A stretch of DNA of 64,000 bases, taken from contig CACYJH010000008.1 in the NCBI GenBank assembly GCA_902774685.1, forward strand, positions 62,001 to 126,000. Reading direction: 5' to 3'. This document shows positions 11,208 to 58,185 of this stretch, piece by piece. The number at the start of each line of letters is the position of its first letter. The stretch's first letter is position 1. The notes under the pieces were generated by a model. The model ran no database searches. It worked only from the letters and a program-made list of their open reading frames with translations, and was not told the DNA's origin. Origin of the DNA: an uncultured Methanobrevibacter sp. (lineage in GTDB: Archaea > Methanobacteriota > Methanobacteria > Methanobacteriales > Methanobacteriaceae). The position numbers were made by a program, and so were the translations under genes.

Positions 11208-12014
11208 TCATTTATTTCCAAAATCGTCCCAGAAATGAGTTTGGAAAACACTTTTTTTACTTAATTCCTCTAATTTCAAGAACAATTTCCAAGGCATGGA
11301 CAAGTTCATGTAATCATCTGGAATCAATCTTCTCATATGAGCCCTTGCTGCAAAGTCAAGTGGACTTAATACAGGGACAGGGTCATCACTATCTGCTTGC
11401 TCGAAAGTGAATGCACCAATAGCTTGACATGCAGATGCTTGAGGAGTCATTACATATGCACTATTTGACCTGAATGATCCATTCAATTGAAGTATTGCAG
11501 ATAGTTCCATAGTGTTTAATGTAAAGACAACAGAATCTGGAATTTCACCTTCTTCAAGAAGTTCTATCGGCTTAAAGATTACATACTGCCCTTCATCATA
11601 ATAAGGCCTATTCTTTATGTGTTCATATGCAGTATCAAAGTCTGAATAGATTCTCTCACCCTTTTTAAACATTTCTGCAGTAGGTTTTGGCATAAAGCTT
11701 AACCTATGTAGAAATGCTTCCTTATCTTTAGCGGATTCTGTACCTAAAGATAAAAAGGTGGCTTGAAATTCCCTGTCTTCATCTGTCTTGAATCCAGTTC
11801 CCCAACCAAAACCTGCAGATACCCCTCCACAAGTAATGTTTTCACGACCAAAAGCAGTGACTTTCCTCTTTGCAATGGCTTGTGCAACTAAAGACATTAC
11901 ACAGCCGCCTCTACCTGCTTTAGGAGCCAAAGCATCATCTGGCTTTTCATCAGATTTAATCAATACAATTGGATCAAACTGCCCATTCAATTCCTTTACA
12001 ATATTAAATTCCAT
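11208..12014 (-). CDS. DUF169 family protein
   Basis: 268 residues, resembling DUF169 proteins found in methanogens and many anaerobes. The Gly/Cys-rich GRGGCVMSLVAQAIAKRK (near 34) and CGGVSAGFGWGTGFK (near 62) segments are the conserved part of that family. No catalytic role is established. It converges with the GfcR-like gene (63 bases apart). SD is weak. Confidence 0.75.
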   Translation of the reverse strand: MEFNIVKELNGQFDPIVLIKSDEKPDDALAPKAGRGGCVMSLVAQAIAKRKVTAFGRENITCGGVSAGFGWGTGFKTDEDREFQATFLSLGTESAKDKEAFLHRLSFMPKPTAEMFKKGERIYSDFDTAYEHIKNRPYYDEGQYVIFKPIELLEEGEIPDSVVFTLNTMELSAILQLNGSFRSNSAYVMTPQASACQAIGAFTFEQADSDDPVPVLSPLDFAARAHMRRLIPDDYMNLSMPWKLFLKLEELSKKSVFQTHFWDDFGNK

Positions 12015-12176
12015 TTTAAAACAACCCTTAATATTAATTGATTTAAGATTTATTCAATGGAATATAAAGATTTTACTATTTAAAAGAAGAAAAAGGATTA
12101 ATAACTAAATTAAGTATTAAAATAAAACAAAACTTAAAACCAGACAATCAAGGTTACTATGCAGTTACAAAAAAGA

Positions 12177-12187
12177 TTTATATATAT
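12177..12187 (+). promoter_or_regulatory. probable TATA box/BRE of the macrodomain-sirtuin operon
   Basis: AAAAAAGATTTATATATATG ends about 48 bases before the ATG at 12235. The purine-rich BRE-like stretch followed by TTTATATAT fits an archaeal promoter with a leader of about 25 bases containing the GAGGT ribosome site. Confidence 0.5.
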
Positions 12188-12234
12188 GCGAACAATAGTT
12201 AATATAAGAAATAAGATAATCCATGAGGTTAAAG

Positions 12235-13053
12235 ATGAAAGAATTCGATAAAAATACTGAAATAGATTTTCTGATAAATGAATTGATTTCCACCAATGAA
12301 AGAATAGACAATAATATGGAAATTCCTGACAATTATGATGAAAAGAGAAAATTGCTTAGAGCATTGATGAATACACAAACTCCAGTGCAGTTAAGTGATG
12401 AATTCTATGAAATTCAAGATAGGATCCTTAGCGATGAAACAAATAACAAAGATTTGGTCTCCTGGGAAGATATAGAAACAATTAGTCAAAATCCCAATGA
12501 AATAGACTCAAAGATAGCTTTATGGCAAGGAGACATCACTTATCTAAAAGCAGATGCAATAGTGAATGCAGCAAACAGCCAAATGTTAGGATGCTTTATT
12601 CCTTTGCACAACTGCATTGACAATCAGATTCATTCAGCAGCAGGATTCCAGTTAAGAATGGATTGCTATAAGATCATGCAAAATCAAGGGCATGAAGAGG
12701 CGAATGGAAATGCAAAAATCACATCAGCCTATAACCTCCCTTCAAAATATGTCATCCATACTGTAGGCCCAGCAATACCTTATGGAAGAGAACCTGATGA
12801 GAATGAAATAAGAGAGCTTGAAAGCTGTTATCAATCCTGTTTGGAACTTGCAGATGAGCACGAATTAAAATCAATAGCTTTTTGTTCAATATCAACTGGA
12901 GTCTTCAACTTCCCAAAAGACCAAGCTTCCAAATTAGCTATTGAAACTGTAAGAAACTACTTAAAGAACAATCCAAATACAAATATTGAAAAGATAATAT
13001 TCAATACATTTTCAGATGAAGCAACAGAAATCTATAGGAAAAATCTAAAATAG
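12235..13053 (+). CDS. zinc-containing macrodomain ADP-ribosyl hydrolase of the SirTM type
   Basis: Removes ADP-ribose from proteins. The first 90 or so residues are a helical extension. The macrodomain begins at KIALWQGDITYLKADAIVNAANSQ, and the zinc-site motif MLGCFIPLHNCIDNQIHSAAG (about 116-136) marks the class that pairs with class M sirtuins. IHTVGP and FCSISTGVFNFP complete the ADP-ribose pocket. It is followed 10 bases later by the sirtuin gene. The start is the ATG at 12235, five bases after GAGGT; an in-frame ATG at 12223 sits on that site and is less likely. Confidence 0.88.
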   Translation: MKEFDKNTEIDFLINELISTNERIDNNMEIPDNYDEKRKLLRALMNTQTPVQLSDEFYEIQDRILSDETNNKDLVSWEDIETISQNPNEIDSKIALWQGDITYLKADAIVNAANSQMLGCFIPLHNCIDNQIHSAAGFQLRMDCYKIMQNQGHEEANGNAKITSAYNLPSKYVIHTVGPAIPYGREPDENEIRELESCYQSCLELADEHELKSIAFCSISTGVFNFPKDQASKLAIETVRNYLKNNPNTNIEKIIFNTFSDEATEIYRKNLK

Positions 13054-13063
13054 GGGTGAAAAT

Positions 13064-13981
13064 ATGGAAGAATACAATTTAAGAGTGGAAAAATTGAAAG
13101 AGCTCATTGATGATGCAGATTACATATTGATAGGTGCAGGTGCTGGACTATCAACTGCTGCAGGAGTGGAATACGCAGGGAAAAGGTTTACAGATAATTT
13201 CCCAGAATTTATTGAAAAATATGGATTTCAGGACATGTACACTTCAATGTTCTATCCATTCAAAAGTCCAGAGGAAAGATGGGCATATTTTGCTAAGCAT
13301 GTTTATGTAAACAACATTGGAATAGAAGGAACAGACCTTTATAAAAAACTCTTCAGCATAGTGAAAGATAAGGATTATTTCGTAATCACAACAAATACTG
13401 ATGACCAATTCCTGAAATCCGGATTTGACAAGGACAGATTCTTTAGAACACAAGGGACATACAGCAAAATCCAATGCTCTAAGGCATGCCATAATAAATT
13501 ATATGACGATACAGAATTGATCTTGGAAATGATGGAAAAGACTGATGAAGACTTGAAGATACCAAGTGAACTCGTCCCTAAATGTCCAGTTTGCGGTGAG
13601 GAAATGGACCTGAACTTAAGAAAAGACAGCTTCTTTGTAGAGGATGATGAGTGGCATGAACAAAATAGGAACTACATTGATTTTAGACAAAAGGCACTAA
13701 ATGGAAAATTGCTCCTTCTGGAATTTGGAATTGGATTCAACACCCCAATTATAATTCGTTTCCCATTCGATGATTTAGTGAAATCATATGAAAATGTCAA
13801 TCTTGTGAGATTCAACAGAAGCCACACTGAATTAACAGTTAAACATAATGGAAATTATTATTTGGTTCCAGAGGATGAACTTGACAAGTATGTCTCACCA
13901 GACATTAAAGAGAGATATGTTCCTTTCAAGGAGAGCATTGGCGAAACATTGAAAAAGATTAAATATTTTGTGCAGATATGA
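13064..13981 (+). CDS. class M sirtuin (SirTM), protein ADP-ribosyltransferase
   Basis: A Sir2 NAD-binding fold: GAGAGLSTAAGVEY near 24 and TTNTDDQF near 109. The catalytic histidine region of ordinary sirtuins (HGS) is replaced by RTQGTYSKIQC, i.e. Gln, as in the bacterial SirTM enzymes that mono-ADP-ribosylate a lipoylated GcvH-like protein. A zinc site is formed by Cys about 138 and 143 and CPVC about 174-177. SD GGGGTGA overlaps the end of the macrodomain gene, so the two are coupled. The usual bacterial neighbours (GcvH-like protein, lipoate ligase) are not in this window, so the target is unknown. Confidence 0.88.
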   Translation: MEEYNLRVEKLKELIDDADYILIGAGAGLSTAAGVEYAGKRFTDNFPEFIEKYGFQDMYTSMFYPFKSPEERWAYFAKHVYVNNIGIEGTDLYKKLFSIVKDKDYFVITTNTDDQFLKSGFDKDRFFRTQGTYSKIQCSKACHNKLYDDTELILEMMEKTDEDLKIPSELVPKCPVCGEEMDLNLRKDSFFVEDDEWHEQNRNYIDFRQKALNGKLLLLEFGIGFNTPIIIRFPFDDLVKSYENVNLVRFNRSHTELTVKHNGNYYLVPEDELDKYVSPDIKERYVPFKESIGETLKKIKYFVQI

Positions 13982-13991
13982 TCTTCCAGAA

Positions 13992-15368
13992 TTACTCCTT
14001 ATTGGATCTAATCAATCTTTTTATATGCAAATCTGCCCAAATCATTGTGATTGTATTTACAACAATCTCTCCTAGGATTATTCCCCACCAAGCACCATAT
14101 TCTCCATATCCCAATACAATAGCTAAAAGTATTGCAAATGCAAGAGTGAATACTGTTTCCCTTAATATTGTCTGGAACATTGCAGTTATGCCGTTTCCTG
14201 TTCCTTGGAAAACAAAGGTTGAAGTACATCCATATCCCATAGTTGGGAAATAAATGACTATTACAGACAGGAATGCAATAAGCTGTGGAGTCAATCTTGT
14301 ACTTGTACCTGTGTATGCAAATACTGAAACGATTTGTGGAGCAAATAGATAAACAACTATTGCAGCTATGAATCCGAATAGGATAGCTATCTTCATGGAA
14401 TATCTATGAGCCACCAAAATCTCATCATACTTTTTAGCCCCATAATTTGCACCTACAACAGATATTAAGGCTGTAGCTATTGCAATTATTGGAGTTGTTG
14501 CAATTGTAACCACTCTCCAGCCAGTTGAATATACTGCAACAGCATCTGTATTTGCTACAACAACAAGCAAAAGTGAGAATATTGCTGCAAACAAAGCATT
14601 GTTAATCAATTCCAGACTTGCAGGAAAACCTACTTTTATGATATCCACAGTAATGTCTTTATTAAACTTATAATTAGAATAAAATGGCTTTAAATAAGTA
14701 TCTTTCTTCATATAGAACCAATATGCCAGAATAATATTCACAAGCAACAATGAGATTAATGTGGCAATTGCTGCTCCCTTAACTCCCAAATTAAGACCAT
14801 AAATAAGAATTGGATCCAATATCATGTTGAAGATTGAGGAAAATAGCATTGCATACATTGTTCTGTTTGCATCACCTTCTCCTCTTAGGACCCCATATAA
14901 TGCATTTGATAAAATAACAAGAATGGAACCAATAGAAAGAATCATACCATAATCCATCGCATAATCGATTGTGCTTCCTGCACCCATCCCAAGGAGAATG
15001 TCCTTCAGGAATATGAGGAGTAGGATTGTTGTAATAACAGAAACAATGATTGTGATAAAAATTGTATGAATGGCACCATTATCCGCCTTTTCCTTATTGC
15101 CTTCACCAATATATTTGGATAATGCAGAAGCAGAACCTGCTCCCAAACCATTTCCTATTCCCATAAGTGCAATGAATATAGGGCTTACAAAACCAACTCC
15201 TGCAAGAGCATCTGCACCTAAGCCAGATACCCAAATGGCATCGATTACGCTATAAAGACTTGTGATAAACAAAGAAATGATAAGTGGAATGGACATTTTC
15301 CACAAAGCCTTCTTAGGATCTCCTAATATTGAGTCCACCCCTTGATGATTTTTTATGTTTTCATTCAT
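13992..15368 (-). CDS. MATE family efflux transporter
   Basis: 458 residues with about 12 hydrophobic segments in two similar halves, opening with WKMSIPLIISLFITSLYSVIDAIWVSGLG, the typical MATE start. Such exporters move cationic drugs or metabolites out using a Na+ or H+ gradient. Its 3' end faces that of the sirtuin gene 10 bases away. Substrate cannot be inferred. A second MATE protein lies at 27310-28710. Confidence 0.9.
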   Translation of the reverse strand: MNENIKNHQGVDSILGDPKKALWKMSIPLIISLFITSLYSVIDAIWVSGLGADALAGVGFVSPIFIALMGIGNGLGAGSASALSKYIGEGNKEKADNGAIHTIFITIIVSVITTILLLIFLKDILLGMGAGSTIDYAMDYGMILSIGSILVILSNALYGVLRGEGDANRTMYAMLFSSIFNMILDPILIYGLNLGVKGAAIATLISLLLVNIILAYWFYMKKDTYLKPFYSNYKFNKDITVDIIKVGFPASLELINNALFAAIFSLLLVVVANTDAVAVYSTGWRVVTIATTPIIAIATALISVVGANYGAKKYDEILVAHRYSMKIAILFGFIAAIVVYLFAPQIVSVFAYTGTSTRLTPQLIAFLSVIVIYFPTMGYGCTSTFVFQGTGNGITAMFQTILRETVFTLAFAILLAIVLGYGEYGAWWGIILGEIVVNTITMIWADLHIKRLIRSNKE

Positions 15369-15815: not shown

Positions 15816-16257
15816 CTTCAAGTGGAAGCTGATTGAAATAGAGAGTAAAAGCATAATATCACAAAAGTGAAAAATCACAAAATAAATTTCACCAATTTAA
15901 ATAAAAATACGCCAAATATTTTTAATACTTATTAAAAAAAATACCAATTTAATCAATCATACATCTAATTATTTTATATTTGAAACTTTTTTTGGAAACA
16001 AATCCTCACCTCTGATGCATCACTTCATACTTATTTCTAATTTTATAAAAATTTTTAAAAAATGATCCCCTAAAAAAGAATGCAAAATTTTTCATTTTTA
16101 TTTTAAAATTACAAAATGACATCAATATTAAAATAAAGTTGTAAAATTGCTTTAATTTAGTTATAATATTCTAAAAACTTTTTATAACCGATAATAATTT
16201 ATATAATAAGGATAAATAAAAAAATAAAGAAAATTAAGCTAAATTTAGGTGAAATAC
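15816..16257. other. AT-rich spacer with promoter of the next operon
   Basis: Non-coding. TTTATATAAT at about 16198-16207, with an expected start site near 16232, fits a promoter for the 16258 gene. Nothing else supported. Confidence 0.45.
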
Positions 16258-17112
16258 ATGATTGATGAAATCTTTGATGAATACGAAAAGCAACAAAAAG
16301 AGAATTTCTTAATGATAGGAAAACATTTTGGCATTGAAGGGGAATTTCTCTCAAGACCTAATGCAAACCATGATCTAATAATTATCCTAAAGAGCACCAA
16401 TCTATTGAATGAAGAGATAGACTCATTTGAACTTATTGATGATTTCTATGAGAAAATCGTTAAGGAAGGAATATTATTTGGATTAGGGTTTGGAAAAGCA
16501 CATATGATTAAGAAAGTCATGGAGTTGCCATTAAGCAAAAATGAAATTTCTGAAATAGATCTGGATGATTATAATGAGTTTTTTCCAAAGTTCGATGAAT
16601 CAAAATCAGTTTTGAATGAATATTGCGAAGATGGGATGAAAAGGGTTCTTGTAACAATGAATGCAGAACTAAGTGATATTGAAAAAGAGGCTGAAGAAGT
16701 ACTTTTTATCGCTAAAATTATTGATAAAAACCATAACGAACTGAAAAAAATGCTATATGAAGAGTTTTTGGATGCTTTTGAAATTGATAGGAAAAAGGCG
16801 AAATACGGTTTCCAGAAAAATATCAGAATCGACTCAGAAATATTGAGGCCACAAATAAGATCCCGATTTTTTAAGGAGAAGGAAGGGACTTTTAAGGTCA
16901 AGGAAATTCTTGAAGACTATTTTGAGCTGATGATAGATACCGGTGCGGAAATAGGAATAAAGGTAGGATTTGGAATAGTGATTGGGGATATTCAAAAAGA
17001 CCAGATAAACTACGACAAACTAAAAAACTTAAGCGAAACTGAAATCATGATGTATATCCAAAAGGAGCACAGCGATTACATATTCAAAAAGCACAACAAT
17101 TGTGCTTGCTAA
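16258..17112 (+). CDS. unknown protein, first member of a tandem related pair
   Basis: 284 residues, charged, no signal peptide or membrane segment. It contains two related elements: near 70, VKEGILFGLGFGKAHMIKKV, and near 235, IDTGAEIGIKVGFGIVIGDI. The next gene (17133) has the same two elements at comparable positions and a similar N-terminus (DEIFDEYEK versus NEIYELYEK). The start is the ATG at 16258 because AGGTGA (16247-16252) lies five bases ahead; an in-frame GTG at 16249 overlaps that site. It ends 20 bases before the next start. Family and function unknown. Confidence 0.75.
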   Translation: MIDEIFDEYEKQQKENFLMIGKHFGIEGEFLSRPNANHDLIIILKSTNLLNEEIDSFELIDDFYEKIVKEGILFGLGFGKAHMIKKVMELPLSKNEISEIDLDDYNEFFPKFDESKSVLNEYCEDGMKRVLVTMNAELSDIEKEAEEVLFIAKIIDKNHNELKKMLYEEFLDAFEIDRKKAKYGFQKNIRIDSEILRPQIRSRFFKEKEGTFKVKEILEDYFELMIDTGAEIGIKVGFGIVIGDIQKDQINYDKLKNLSETEIMMYIQKEHSDYIFKKHNNCAC

Positions 17113-17132
17113 AACAAGAAGGCGGTGAAGAT

Positions 17133-18086
17133 ATGAGCTATTTGGTTAATGAAATTTACGAACTTTATGAAAAGCATTTGGAACTTACAGAACCTGTTTT
17201 AAAGGACATTGGAGTGGATGCCAACATACACAATTACCTCATTGATGTGAATATAGACCTCGAAATATTGCTTGAATCAAATGACCTGATTAAATATGAC
17301 CATAACAAATTGCAGGAAAAGATCAAGGAGGCATACGATGAAGTGTTTAAGGAAGGAATCCTGTTTGGAATCATAGTGGGAAAGATAATTAAGCTGAATA
17401 ACTGTTTGGAAAACAAGGAAAAATACAGCGAGTATCTCGAAAGGGAATATGATTATTATACAGAATATAACTTTAAGATTGATTTCTTTAAAAAGACAAT
17501 ACCTCCAATAAAAATAAGGAAATCAACAAGGGAAGCAAGTCCAAGACAGCTGAATTACAGAAACAAGAAGTATGAGGAAAAAAGGGAAGTGGATGGGATA
17601 GATGTTAATTGCGAGATGGTGAAAGATGGAATATACACCATCAATGAAGAGATAATCGAATATAAGGAAAGAATCGAAAGAAATGGAATAATCAGTTTTT
17701 TAGAATCTGAAGGCATTGATGATGGATTGAATGATAAATTCTCAGATATCAATGACCGACTGTTTGAAAAGCTATTCAATATATTGGAAGTGAATCTGAA
17801 TAATGCAGAAAGGGCATGCCAGAATTTTTATCGCTTTGATACATTTACAGCCCATGACATGTTTGTATCCGACATTTTTGCAAATCTTGAAGGAGAATTT
17901 GAAGCTAAGGAACTGGTGGAACTTTATTTAAAATATGTTTTCTTCAAAGGATTGGATATAGGGATATTGAATGGAAAAATGTTTTTTATATATGATATCC
18001 AAGAGGGATTCCTGAATTACTATAAAATACAGAATATGGACTCGAATGAAAAAAGCAGATATTTGATAAAAGAATTGTTTGATTAA
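17133..18086 (+). CDS. unknown protein, second member of the tandem pair
   Basis: 317 residues from the ATG at 17133, preceded by GGCGGTGA. It shares with the preceding gene an N-terminal NEIYELYEK, FKEGILFGIIVGKIIKL near 75 and a C-terminal FKGLDIGILNGKMFFIYDIQ followed by a region like IQKDQINYDKLKNLSE of its neighbour. The middle carries a basic segment (IRKSTREASPRQLNYRNKKYEEKREVDG) absent from the first gene. Probably co-transcribed and perhaps a hetero-complex. No function recognised. Confidence 0.75.
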   Translation: MSYLVNEIYELYEKHLELTEPVLKDIGVDANIHNYLIDVNIDLEILLESNDLIKYDHNKLQEKIKEAYDEVFKEGILFGIIVGKIIKLNNCLENKEKYSEYLEREYDYYTEYNFKIDFFKKTIPPIKIRKSTREASPRQLNYRNKKYEEKREVDGIDVNCEMVKDGIYTINEEIIEYKERIERNGIISFLESEGIDDGLNDKFSDINDRLFEKLFNILEVNLNNAERACQNFYRFDTFTAHDMFVSDIFANLEGEFEAKELVELYLKYVFFKGLDIGILNGKMFFIYDIQEGFLNYYKIQNMDSNEKSRYLIKELFD

Positions 18087-57105: not shown

Positions 57106-58185
57106 CTAATACTCCTTAATCATATTGCTGAATTCTTCAAACAATACTCTTGTATCATTTGGTCCAGGACCAGATTCCGGGTGGTATTGGATGGTTCTTA
57201 AAGGCAATTCCTTATGTAAGAATCCTTCAGGAGTACCATCGTTCAAGTTTATTTGGGTCAATTCCAAATCAGTGCCCTTTAAGGAATCCGGATTAATAGC
57301 GAATCCATGATTTTGGGAAGTGATGAACACTTTTCCAGTTTGCAAGTCTTTCACAGGTTGATTTGCTCCTCTGTGACCAAATTTCATCTTATAGGTAGTT
57401 GCACCGAATGTCTTTGCAATTACATGTTGACCCATACAAATACCAAATATAGGGAATCTATTAAGTAATTTCTCTACATTTGCAATGGTTTCAGTTAATC
57501 TTTCAGGGTTTCCAGGACCCGGTGAAACCATAAGCCCATTTACACCATAATCCAAAATGGTTTGATAATCGGTATCATAAGGGAATAAAGCAACACCAAT
57601 ATCATTTTCCAAGAAACAGTTGATAATGTTCTTTTTAACACCACAATCAAGAATAGCTACAGTCTTATCAAAGTCTCCAAAGGTCTTTAATTCTGGAGTT
57701 GATACTAAAGGAACCAAATCCAAATCAATTATGCTTTTATGTTCCTGAGCACGAGCCACTAACTCATCATCATCAATCTCTTCAGTAGCAAGTGCTGCTT
57801 TTAGAGATCCTTTTTCACGTATCTTTAAAGTTAAGTCTCTTGTATCTATGTCTTCAATTCCAGGTACTTTAAATTCCTTCAAGAAATCATCCAAAGTCTT
57901 TTTTGTACCGAAGTTAGATAATTTTTTACAAGCTTCTCTCACTACAAAACCTTCAACTTGTACCTTATCGGATTGATACCAATCTTCACTGACTCCATAG
58001 TTACCTTCCAATGGGTAGGTGGACATCAATATTTGTCCTTTAAAGGAAGGGTCAGTGAGTGCCTCGGTATAACCGGACATACCAGTTGAGAAAGCAAGTT
58101 CACCTACAGTTACGGTTTCGTAACCGAAGGCTTTTCCTTTTAGAATAGTTCCATCTTCTAAAGCCAATTTTGCTTCATTTCCCAT
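57106..58185 (-). CDS. carA: carbamoyl-phosphate synthase small (glutaminase) subunit
   Basis: Releases ammonia from glutamine and passes it to CarB. 359 residues. The N-terminal domain has STGMSGYTEALTDPSFKGQIL near 33; the glutaminase has the nucleophile Cys in PIFGICMGQHVIAK near 243 and the His/Glu pair in QYHPESGPGPND near 335. SD GGTGA. First gene of the carAB unit. Confidence 0.97.
   Translation of the reverse strand: MGNEAKLALEDGTILKGKAFGYETVTVGELAFSTGMSGYTEALTDPSFKGQILMSTYPLEGNYGVSEDWYQSDKVQVEGFVVREACKKLSNFGTKKTLDDFLKEFKVPGIEDIDTRDLTLKIREKGSLKAALATEEIDDDELVARAQEHKSIIDLDLVPLVSTPELKTFGDFDKTVAILDCGVKKNIINCFLENDIGVALFPYDTDYQTILDYGVNGLMVSPGPGNPERLTETIANVEKLLNRFPIFGICMGQHVIAKTFGATTYKMKFGHRGANQPVKDLQTGKVFITSQNHGFAINPDSLKGTDLELTQINLNDGTPEGFLHKELPLRTIQYHPESGPGPNDTRVLFEEFSNMIKEY

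Follow-up and report, generated by a model that had tools for sequence, protein, structure and literature searches.

A SirTM/Zn-Macro operon of Methanobrevibacter with a putative HxlR operator and no lipoyl-carrier partners found

The operon and its products

The window considered here is a 64,000-nucleotide stretch of DNA from an uncultured Methanobrevibacter sp. (assembly GCA_902774685.1, contig CACYJH010000008.1, positions 62,001 to 126,000), a gut-type methanogen. It contains two adjacent, co-directional genes that lie 10 nt apart and form a single two-gene operon, in which a macrodomain protein of the zinc-dependent subclass (Zn-Macro; the gene is called Macro below) is followed by a class M sirtuin, SirTM (Table 1). 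The pair had been proposed in an earlier note made from the letters of the sequence, and database comparison bears it out at the same coordinates. The first protein scores 350.9 bits with the NCBIfam model NF003163 (protein-ADP-ribose hydrolase; cut-off 272) and matches the Pfam Macro model at 2e-37; among solved structures it is closest to 8RSI (7.4e-88), a Zn-Macro of Methanobrevibacter oralis. A zinc-binding catalytic loop takes the place of the Gly-rich stretch, as is characteristic of Zn-Macros, and in alignment its sequence LGCFIPLHNC has the Cys and His positions common to the solved M. oralis and Staphylococcus aureus proteins. We take the zinc-binding residues to lie within this loop. 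Of two possible starts for the open reading frame (ORF), 12235 is preferred over 12223 because GAGGT would then be suitably placed as a ribosome site and because ATGAGGTTAAAGATG is conserved, recurring in close relatives.

The second protein has no Pfam match at an E-value of 0.001, and against NCBIfam it gives weak deacylase matches only, far under their cut-offs (best 7.8e-6). The structure of the Streptococcus pyogenes enzyme, SpySirTM (5A3A), matches it at 7.1e-53, and the fungal fusion protein 8RSN at 1.2e-29. When aligned with 5A3A, using a numbering offset derived within this analysis, its Asn111, Gln130 and Arg186 correspond to Asn118, Gln137 and Arg192 of SpySirTM, and all three are invariant across 11 aligned archaeal SirTMs. 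Mutation of these residues in SpySirTM dramatically lowers transfer (Rack et al. 2015, PMC4518038; cited throughout from the parts of the text consulted). Class M was defined in the same work by a QG motif and by linkage to a macrodomain, and the window protein has QG (Q130-G131) where other sirtuins have HG, the equivalents of Asn118 and Arg192, and a Zn-subclass macrodomain gene beside its own. Judged by homology, the pair is a Zn-Macro and a class M sirtuin of an already known kind. The replacement of the catalytic His by Gln, to which the earlier note had drawn attention, is indeed present, but it defines the class and is no peculiarity of this protein.

Table 1. Features of the Macro-SirTM locus (positions within the window)
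Feature	Position	Strand	Basis
DUF169 gene (COG2043), divergent, conserved genus neighbour	11208..12014	-	PF02596 (6.2e-30), synteny
Operator-like element, just 5' of promoter	12153..12168	+	conserved motif
TATA-box-like element, putative promoter	12177..12186	+	sequence, genus alignment
Putative Shine-Dalgarno-like GAGGT of Macro gene	12225..12229	+	sequence, kept in close relatives
Macro gene: Zn-Macro, protein-ADP-ribose hydrolase, 272 aa	12235..13053	+	NF003163, 8RSI
Putative Shine-Dalgarno-like GGTGA of SirTM gene	13055..13059	+	sequence
SirTM gene: class M sirtuin, predicted ADP-ribosyltransferase, 305 aa	13064..13981	+	homology (5A3A match)
MATE transporter gene, convergent, bounds unit, probably mere neighbour	13992..15368	-	PF01554, synteny

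Known systems and the missing lipoyl partners

Bacterial pairs of this kind may form an independent operon or belong to an extended one, and one extended type, found in Lactobacillales and Staphylococcaceae, includes genes for GcvH-L and LplA2 (PMC4518038). The earlier note's premise that bacterial pairs sit with a GcvH-like protein and a lipoate ligase consequently holds for these two groups, but not for the independent pairs described in that 2015 paper. In the extended operon of S. aureus and S. pyogenes (GcvH-L, Macro, SirTM, LplA2, OYE and LLM), the Macro and SirTM proteins are homologous to those of the window and the catalytic residues are kept; the window pair, by contrast, is without OYE, LLM or any lipoyl carrier or ligase that could be found, and has an HxlR-type operator-like site instead. 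A closer counterpart is the minimal operon of M. oralis, which belongs to the same named genus and consists of the same two genes without GcvH-L or LplA2. Its macrodomain, MorMacro, has been crystallised (8RSI, 8RSJ and 8RSK; Ariza et al. 2024, PMC11490716, likewise cited from the text consulted). MorMacro demodifies Asp/Glu-ADP-ribosylated PARP1 E988Q and fails on SpyGcvH-L, and what SirTM/Zn-Macro systems modify when they are not part of the extended operon is, according to these authors, still elusive. Their account, in the text consulted, treats the macrodomain, and a regulator, operator or neighbouring genes do not appear in it. Finally, the fungal macrodomain-SirTM fusion Mfs1 (Foc1Mfs1, 8RSN) is homologous in both domains, but it is fused and eukaryotic, unlike the window pair. 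Since the M. oralis operon and the definition of class M are already published, neither a lipoyl-partner-free pair in a methanogen nor its Gln is new.

The search for GcvH-L and LplA2 that the earlier note had recommended was made in the genome of the window (2.07 Mb in 61 contigs, 87.13% complete), and neither was found. The lipoate-ligase model PF21948 has no match there, while 13 of 14 control genomes were positive, and the single match of the GCV_H model PF01597 belongs to pyruvate carboxylase subunit B (PycB), at its biotinyl end. The operon is thus a pair without carrier or ligase, as in the minimal type. The searches were extended to 138 Methanobacteriaceae genomes, which include the window's own and among which 19 make up the genus set. 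PF21948 matched in 42 of them (5 over cut-off), mostly over part of its length (near profile positions 99-200, the frames being some 300-350 aa long), and the two matches tested are BirA. PF01597 matched in 38 (20 over cut-off), and 36 of these matches lie in frames of 568-609 aa, one of which was scanned against families and is PycB; two shorter frames, of 465 aa (G003; G, C and L numbers are our handles for genomes, contigs and loci) and 177 aa (G124), are biotin-carrier-like on inspection, and the shortest is a PycB-like end. None of the 38 is a free-standing frame of GcvH size, and all family-wide matches that were checked are biotin enzymes. The idea of a lipoyl carrier encoded elsewhere in the genome was rejected on these grounds. 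As far as the searches see, this lineage therefore offers no lipoyl-carrier target, and the earlier suggestion of a different target stands to the same extent.

An operator-like element shared with HxlR and flavoprotein genes

Immediately upstream of the operon is an operator-like element, GTTACTATGCAGTTAC, of the form GTTAC-N6-GTWAC. An A-rich stretch resembling a B recognition element (BRE) follows, and then a TATA-like box, TTTATATATA, which makes the promoter of its own that had been postulated for the pair plausible. The same order of GTTAC-N6-GT(T/A)AC, A-run and TATA-like box emerges from an alignment of upstream regions of the genus, the window copy of which, GTTACTATGCAGTTACAAAAAAGATTTATATATA, begins at 12153. 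A strict 21-base pattern (GTTACN6GTWACAAAAA) occurs once per genome in 11 of the 19 genus genomes, each time at the Macro promoter (the site of G008 was placed there via a second contig), and a reversed control pattern has no site in the 19. With at most one mismatch, the 20-base version GTTACN6GTWACAAAA has one site in the 64-kb window against 0.03 expected. A second motif site in the window, at 58109-58124, lies inside the carA coding sequence and was taken as incidental. A looser pattern gave 53 sites in 50 of the 138 family genomes, and 48 of them were placed by script at 600-1300 bp upstream of a SirTM gene on the same strand, with that of G008 added as the 49th by inspection. A further loose site, in G029, falls between HxlR and flavoprotein genes, and G052 has three: one with an HxlR gene and an ORF for a Cys-rich peptide, one before a radical-SAM gene of the ACGX type, and one near a contig end.

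The regulator and flavoprotein genes of these examples recur beside the pair in its archaeal relatives. In 57 archaeal loci (56 loci of relatives plus the window), an HxlR-type gene adjoins Macro in 22, and is divergent in 18. Seven of the 19 genus genomes carry an HxlR gene and a gene for a 134-aa PNPOx-type flavoprotein as a divergent pair, six of these pairs lying just beyond the DUF169 gene. The flavoprotein is a split-barrel protein (PF01243) with a weak match to an F420-dependent PPOX subfamily, and the representative HxlR protein (PF01638, 5e-23) has the redox regulators RrpB and RrpA as its nearest named models, under their cut-offs. The GTTAC motif is present in all seven HxlR/flavoprotein intergenic regions examined (six from the genus, leaving out G008, and one from another genus), with perfect GTTAC/GTAAC arms in six. 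Because of its presence in all seven, GTTAC-N6-GTWAC is read as a putative HxlR operator, and its position at the Macro promoter would make the pair a member of an HxlR (GTTAC) regulon. The earlier view of a pair that stands alone is accordingly accurate within the window, where none of the other ORFs has a match to the examples of HxlR, PNPOx or NAMPT, but it does not take account of an operator-like site common to the HxlR/flavoprotein pair of relatives.

Bacterial relatives and the ACGX peptide system

Bacterial loci were drawn from the best 80 of at least 564 confirmed relatives, and they consequently lean towards archaeal-like SirTMs. Clustering covered 82 loci, and removal of six archaeal loci, two viral loci and two without a called SirTM ORF left 72. 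Genes up to three places from the pair were compared with those farther away (397 and 544 genes, respectively) in 12 categories with uncorrected p-values; the labels come from BLAST to archaeal examples or from one representative per cluster, and the MBL label from a weak match. HxlR genes were concentrated near the pair (23 near, 6 far; p 4e-5), as were PNPOx-ferredoxin (12/0), PNPOx (7/0), nitroreductase (5/0), MBL-like (14/1), DUF1848 (13/2) and Rrf2 (8/3) genes; ABC proteins were also enriched (11/5, p 0.03), and the values for flavin reductases (4/1, p 0.10) and LysR (4/6, p 0.67) were weaker. An HxlR or Rrf2 gene lies within three genes in 31 of the 72 loci, and a split-barrel or nitroreductase-type flavoprotein gene in 22. 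Flavin-type proteins thus occur near the pair both in the S. aureus/S. pyogenes extended operon and in relatives of the window, and the flavoproteins of the bacterial loci mirror the OYE and LLM flavin enzymes of that operon. The DUF1848 protein (e.g., at 121-1053 of L150) is close to SirTM/Macro in 13 of the 72 loci.

A second kind of neighbour is a radical-SAM gene of the ACGX type. One cluster of such genes is found in eight of the 72 loci, within three genes of the pair in seven; its scanned member is TIGR04340 (5e-175), and in six of the eight an ACG-repeat peptide is encoded upstream, one of which was scanned and is TIGR04341 (8.9e-20). The GTTAC motif is present in four of these eight loci and absent from the remaining 64 (p 6.8e-5), a contrast that was noticed post hoc; small script-called ORFs enclose two of the four sites. 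The motif total for the bacterial loci, seven strand-counted matches (four sites), is not far above a shuffled expectation of 2.95, so that only the placement is informative.

In the archaeal family, strong SirTM matches (E < 1e-40) are present in 75 of the 138 genomes and 15 of the 19 genus genomes; weaker sirtuin matches were dropped as presumed canonical, the one in the window's genome alone having been read. ACGX radical-SAM genes occur in 33 of the 138, and 30 of these genomes are among the 75 with SirTM (Fisher p 6e-7; genus-stratified p 4e-4), although shared genome ancestry weakens this and all other co-occurrence p-values given here. Nine of 16 archaeal ACGX loci bear the GTTAC motif, and of the seven that do not, five are truncated or without a full precursor, whereas L227 and L228 have one. 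Among the ACGX clusters (L218, L219, L215 and L223-L238 and, in bacteria, L139, L170, L184 and L194), the promoter motif of Macro-SirTM is frequent. The ACGX system therefore has in common with the pair both the GTTAC-N6-GTWAC motif and HxlR-type neighbours, and SirTM/Macro stand in or beside some of the bacterial clusters; the genome of the window, for its part, has no ACGX radical-SAM match. The association of the motif with ACGX clusters is firmer in archaea and less firm in Bacillota, in which SirTM/Macro can be members of such clusters. Its occurrence beside regulator genes and a peptide cluster in relatives suggests who the partners of the pair may be.

A tandem pseudo-SirTM in some relatives

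Four genomes of the genus set, G001, G002 (M. olleyae SIG14), G014 and G018, encode a second SirTM-like protein of 285-287 aa, 170-250 nt after SirTM (L038:6665-7522, L037:1987-2844, L039:10054-10908 and L040:11603-12463). This protein is 39-43% identical to the window SirTM (alignment A3) and keeps the zinc-ribbon Cys residues, but GAGAGLS has become GGEYLS, QG has become NG, Thr occupies the position of R192 and the IGFNTP stretch is lost; in G002, the catalytic Asn is lost as well. Such changes indicate a pseudo-SirTM that is probably inactive. The ratio of nonsynonymous to synonymous substitution rates (dN/dS) is 0.06-0.07 in the two pairs with estimable dS, the other four pairs being saturated, and the protein is therefore kept by purifying selection.

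Proposed function and alternatives

We think it fairly probable that the pair serves the reversible ADP-ribosylation of a non-lipoyl target within an HxlR-type redox or electrophile regulon. This proposal builds on the observed gene identities and catalytic residues, on searches in which no lipoylation genes were found, on a fixed chromosomal site and on the conserved operator-like element. SirTM would use NAD+ to modify a protein other than a lipoyl carrier with ADP-ribose, at an acidic residue, and the Zn-Macro would take the ADP-ribose off again. An HxlR-family regulator would bind the element at 12153 and switch the pair under redox or electrophile stress, together, in relatives, with a PNPOx-type split-barrel flavoprotein. 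As a guess, the first candidate for the target is another member of this regulon that is flavin- or redox-active, and the second is a biotinyl carrier domain. Between the stress and defence roles that the earlier note had offered for a stand-alone pair, stress would be the better half, judging by the neighbours. Since the system is found in methanogens as well as in pathogens, it may be too narrow to confine its role to oxidative stress of host origin. The operator-like site and the recurring partners would supply concrete target candidates and an inducer class.

Several observations weigh against this proposal. Its main weakness here is that the window's own genome has no close copy of the HxlR regulator or of the flavoprotein (best matches 43% and 28%), so that regulation would have to come from an HxlR paralog or from a gene outside the assembled sequence; around the nearest HxlR gene of this genome (C27), the 9 kb that were read contain no motif. 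Two genomes that are both 99% complete, G001 and G005, also have no close copies, and close orthologs of the two are limited to the seven genus genomes mentioned above, on account of which HxlR and the flavoprotein were rejected as obligatory partners. The loose motif is absent from 26 of the 75 SirTM genomes, including all 11 of Methanosphaera, although two of the 26 (G014 and G018) carry the strict motif. The pairing itself is not constant, as Macro was called in 58 of the 72 bacterial loci and no Macro was called beside SirTM in the archaeal loci L068 and L081. Finally, the HxlR family includes the redox sensors YodB and HypR, and redox sensing is assigned to the present regulators by family analogy.

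A wider version of the HxlR-regulon proposal is also possible, and it is put forward tentatively. The minimal SirTM/Zn-Macro pair could be the ADP-ribosylation arm of an HxlR redox module of methanogens and Bacillota, the other members of which could be split-barrel flavoproteins and the ACGX radical-SAM peptide. Its substrate might be the flavoprotein or an Asp/Glu-bearing ACGX repeat peptide, and genomes that lack both, such as that of the window, might retain the pair to act on a host target that is still present. In favour of this version are the co-occurrence of ACGX radical-SAM genes with SirTM in the archaeal family and the eight bacterial ACGX loci described above. In some relatives the conserved pseudo-SirTM (SirTM2) would be a regulatory partner within this module. 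Both the ACGX link and the pseudo-SirTM would, if confirmed, be biologically new. We could find no earlier description of the operator, of the repeated association with flavoproteins and ACGX or of the pseudo-SirTM in the literature consulted. No paper within that literature (most subscription papers and bioRxiv preprints fell outside its scope) joins sirtuin, macrodomain and HxlR, none treats the ACGX peptide system by title, and PMC11490716 is the sole relevant paper on sirtuin ADP-ribosylation in Methanobrevibacter.

Other functions can be proposed for the pair. The biotinyl carrier domain of PycB could stand in for lipoyl-GcvH-L as the target, given that PycB is a swinging-arm carrier and the sole GCV_H match in the window's genome and that the one known SirTM target is a swinging-arm carrier as well (PMC4518038, PMC11490716, in the parts consulted). 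This seems improbable in view of the biotin-carrier matches in genomes without a strong SirTM, such as G003, the lack of any genetic linkage seen, and the absence of SirTM activity on biotinyl-BCCP that Rack et al. (2015, PMC4518038) report in connection with deacylation.

Alternatively, SirTM might mainly consume NAD+, or signal via nicotinamide or ADP-ribose, while Macro clears free or O-linked ADP-ribose, the two together tuning NAD. In five genus genomes (G005, G014, G015, G017 and G018; loci L036, L037, L038, L043 and L045), the pair is indeed followed by a co-directional NAMPT-family gene, and across the family NAMPT is more frequent in genomes with SirTM (49 of 75) than in the others (19 of 63; genus-stratified p 0.044). 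The copy in G015 (NF006629, 584 bits; NAMPT_N, 3e-43) is preceded by two other ORFs. The window's genome, however, has no NAMPT match, for which reason NAMPT was rejected as a constant partner, in most other genomes the gene lies elsewhere, and the SirTMs assayed elsewhere are specific protein transferases (PMC4518038). NAD tuning is thus an unlikely main role, and reversible modification of a protein within an HxlR regulon is preferred to it.

Least likely of all, and by our estimate very improbable, is a stand-alone defence or toxin-antitoxin-like module in which SirTM harms and Macro protects: DarT/DarG has a layout resembling this adjacency of writer and eraser, but PADLOC has no match among four proteins (Macro, SirTM, pseudo-SirTM and DUF169), on which a defence island was rejected, only two partial relatives occur among viral contigs, the neighbours are regulator and flavoprotein genes, and in the genus the pair stays at one chromosomal site and evolves under constraint (SirTM1 dN/dS 0.03-0.12 over 10 pairs, with dS > 1 in most).

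The chromosomal site and further observations

In the genus, the main pair occupies one chromosomal place, with DUF169 upstream and MATE downstream wherever the flanks are assembled in the loci read. The MATE gene lies 10 nt past the SirTM gene in the window, and in some genus loci extra genes lie between the two, namely the second SirTM in four genomes and the NAMPT-family gene in five. The DUF169 gene shares its intergenic region with the Macro promoter, and DUF169 is also found near the pair in L076, from another genus.

The Macro and SirTM frames are broken in G015 and G017. Those of G017 are likely sequencing errors, because further genes of that locus are disrupted as well; among the genes compared in G015, solely Macro and SirTM are broken, and true decay is possible there. 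G002 has a second, divergent pair on C61 (L044) that is nearly identical to the pair of G125 C3 (L067), with the same coordinates, an identical Macro and a single residue of difference in SirTM, and it was consequently set aside as probable cross-contamination of the M. olleyae SIG14 metagenome-assembled genome.

A quick tree of SirTMs, from which broken, short or contaminant rows were left out (L043-L047 and ORFs < 250 aa), groups the window's genus with Methanosphaera (SH-aLRT 87). Its archaeal and bacterial rows interleave, making transfer between the domains likely, at an undated time. In Methanosphaera (L064-L074), Macro-SirTM is part of a same-strand gene run, most cases of which include a flavodoxin-like protein and a glutathione peroxidase, and some an alpha/beta hydrolase, a GNAT-like protein, EFR1 ferredoxin or CDF efflux. 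Farther along the window, at 16249-18086, are two tandem paralogs (287 and 328 aa) of unassigned family that are related to one another and conserved in the genus.

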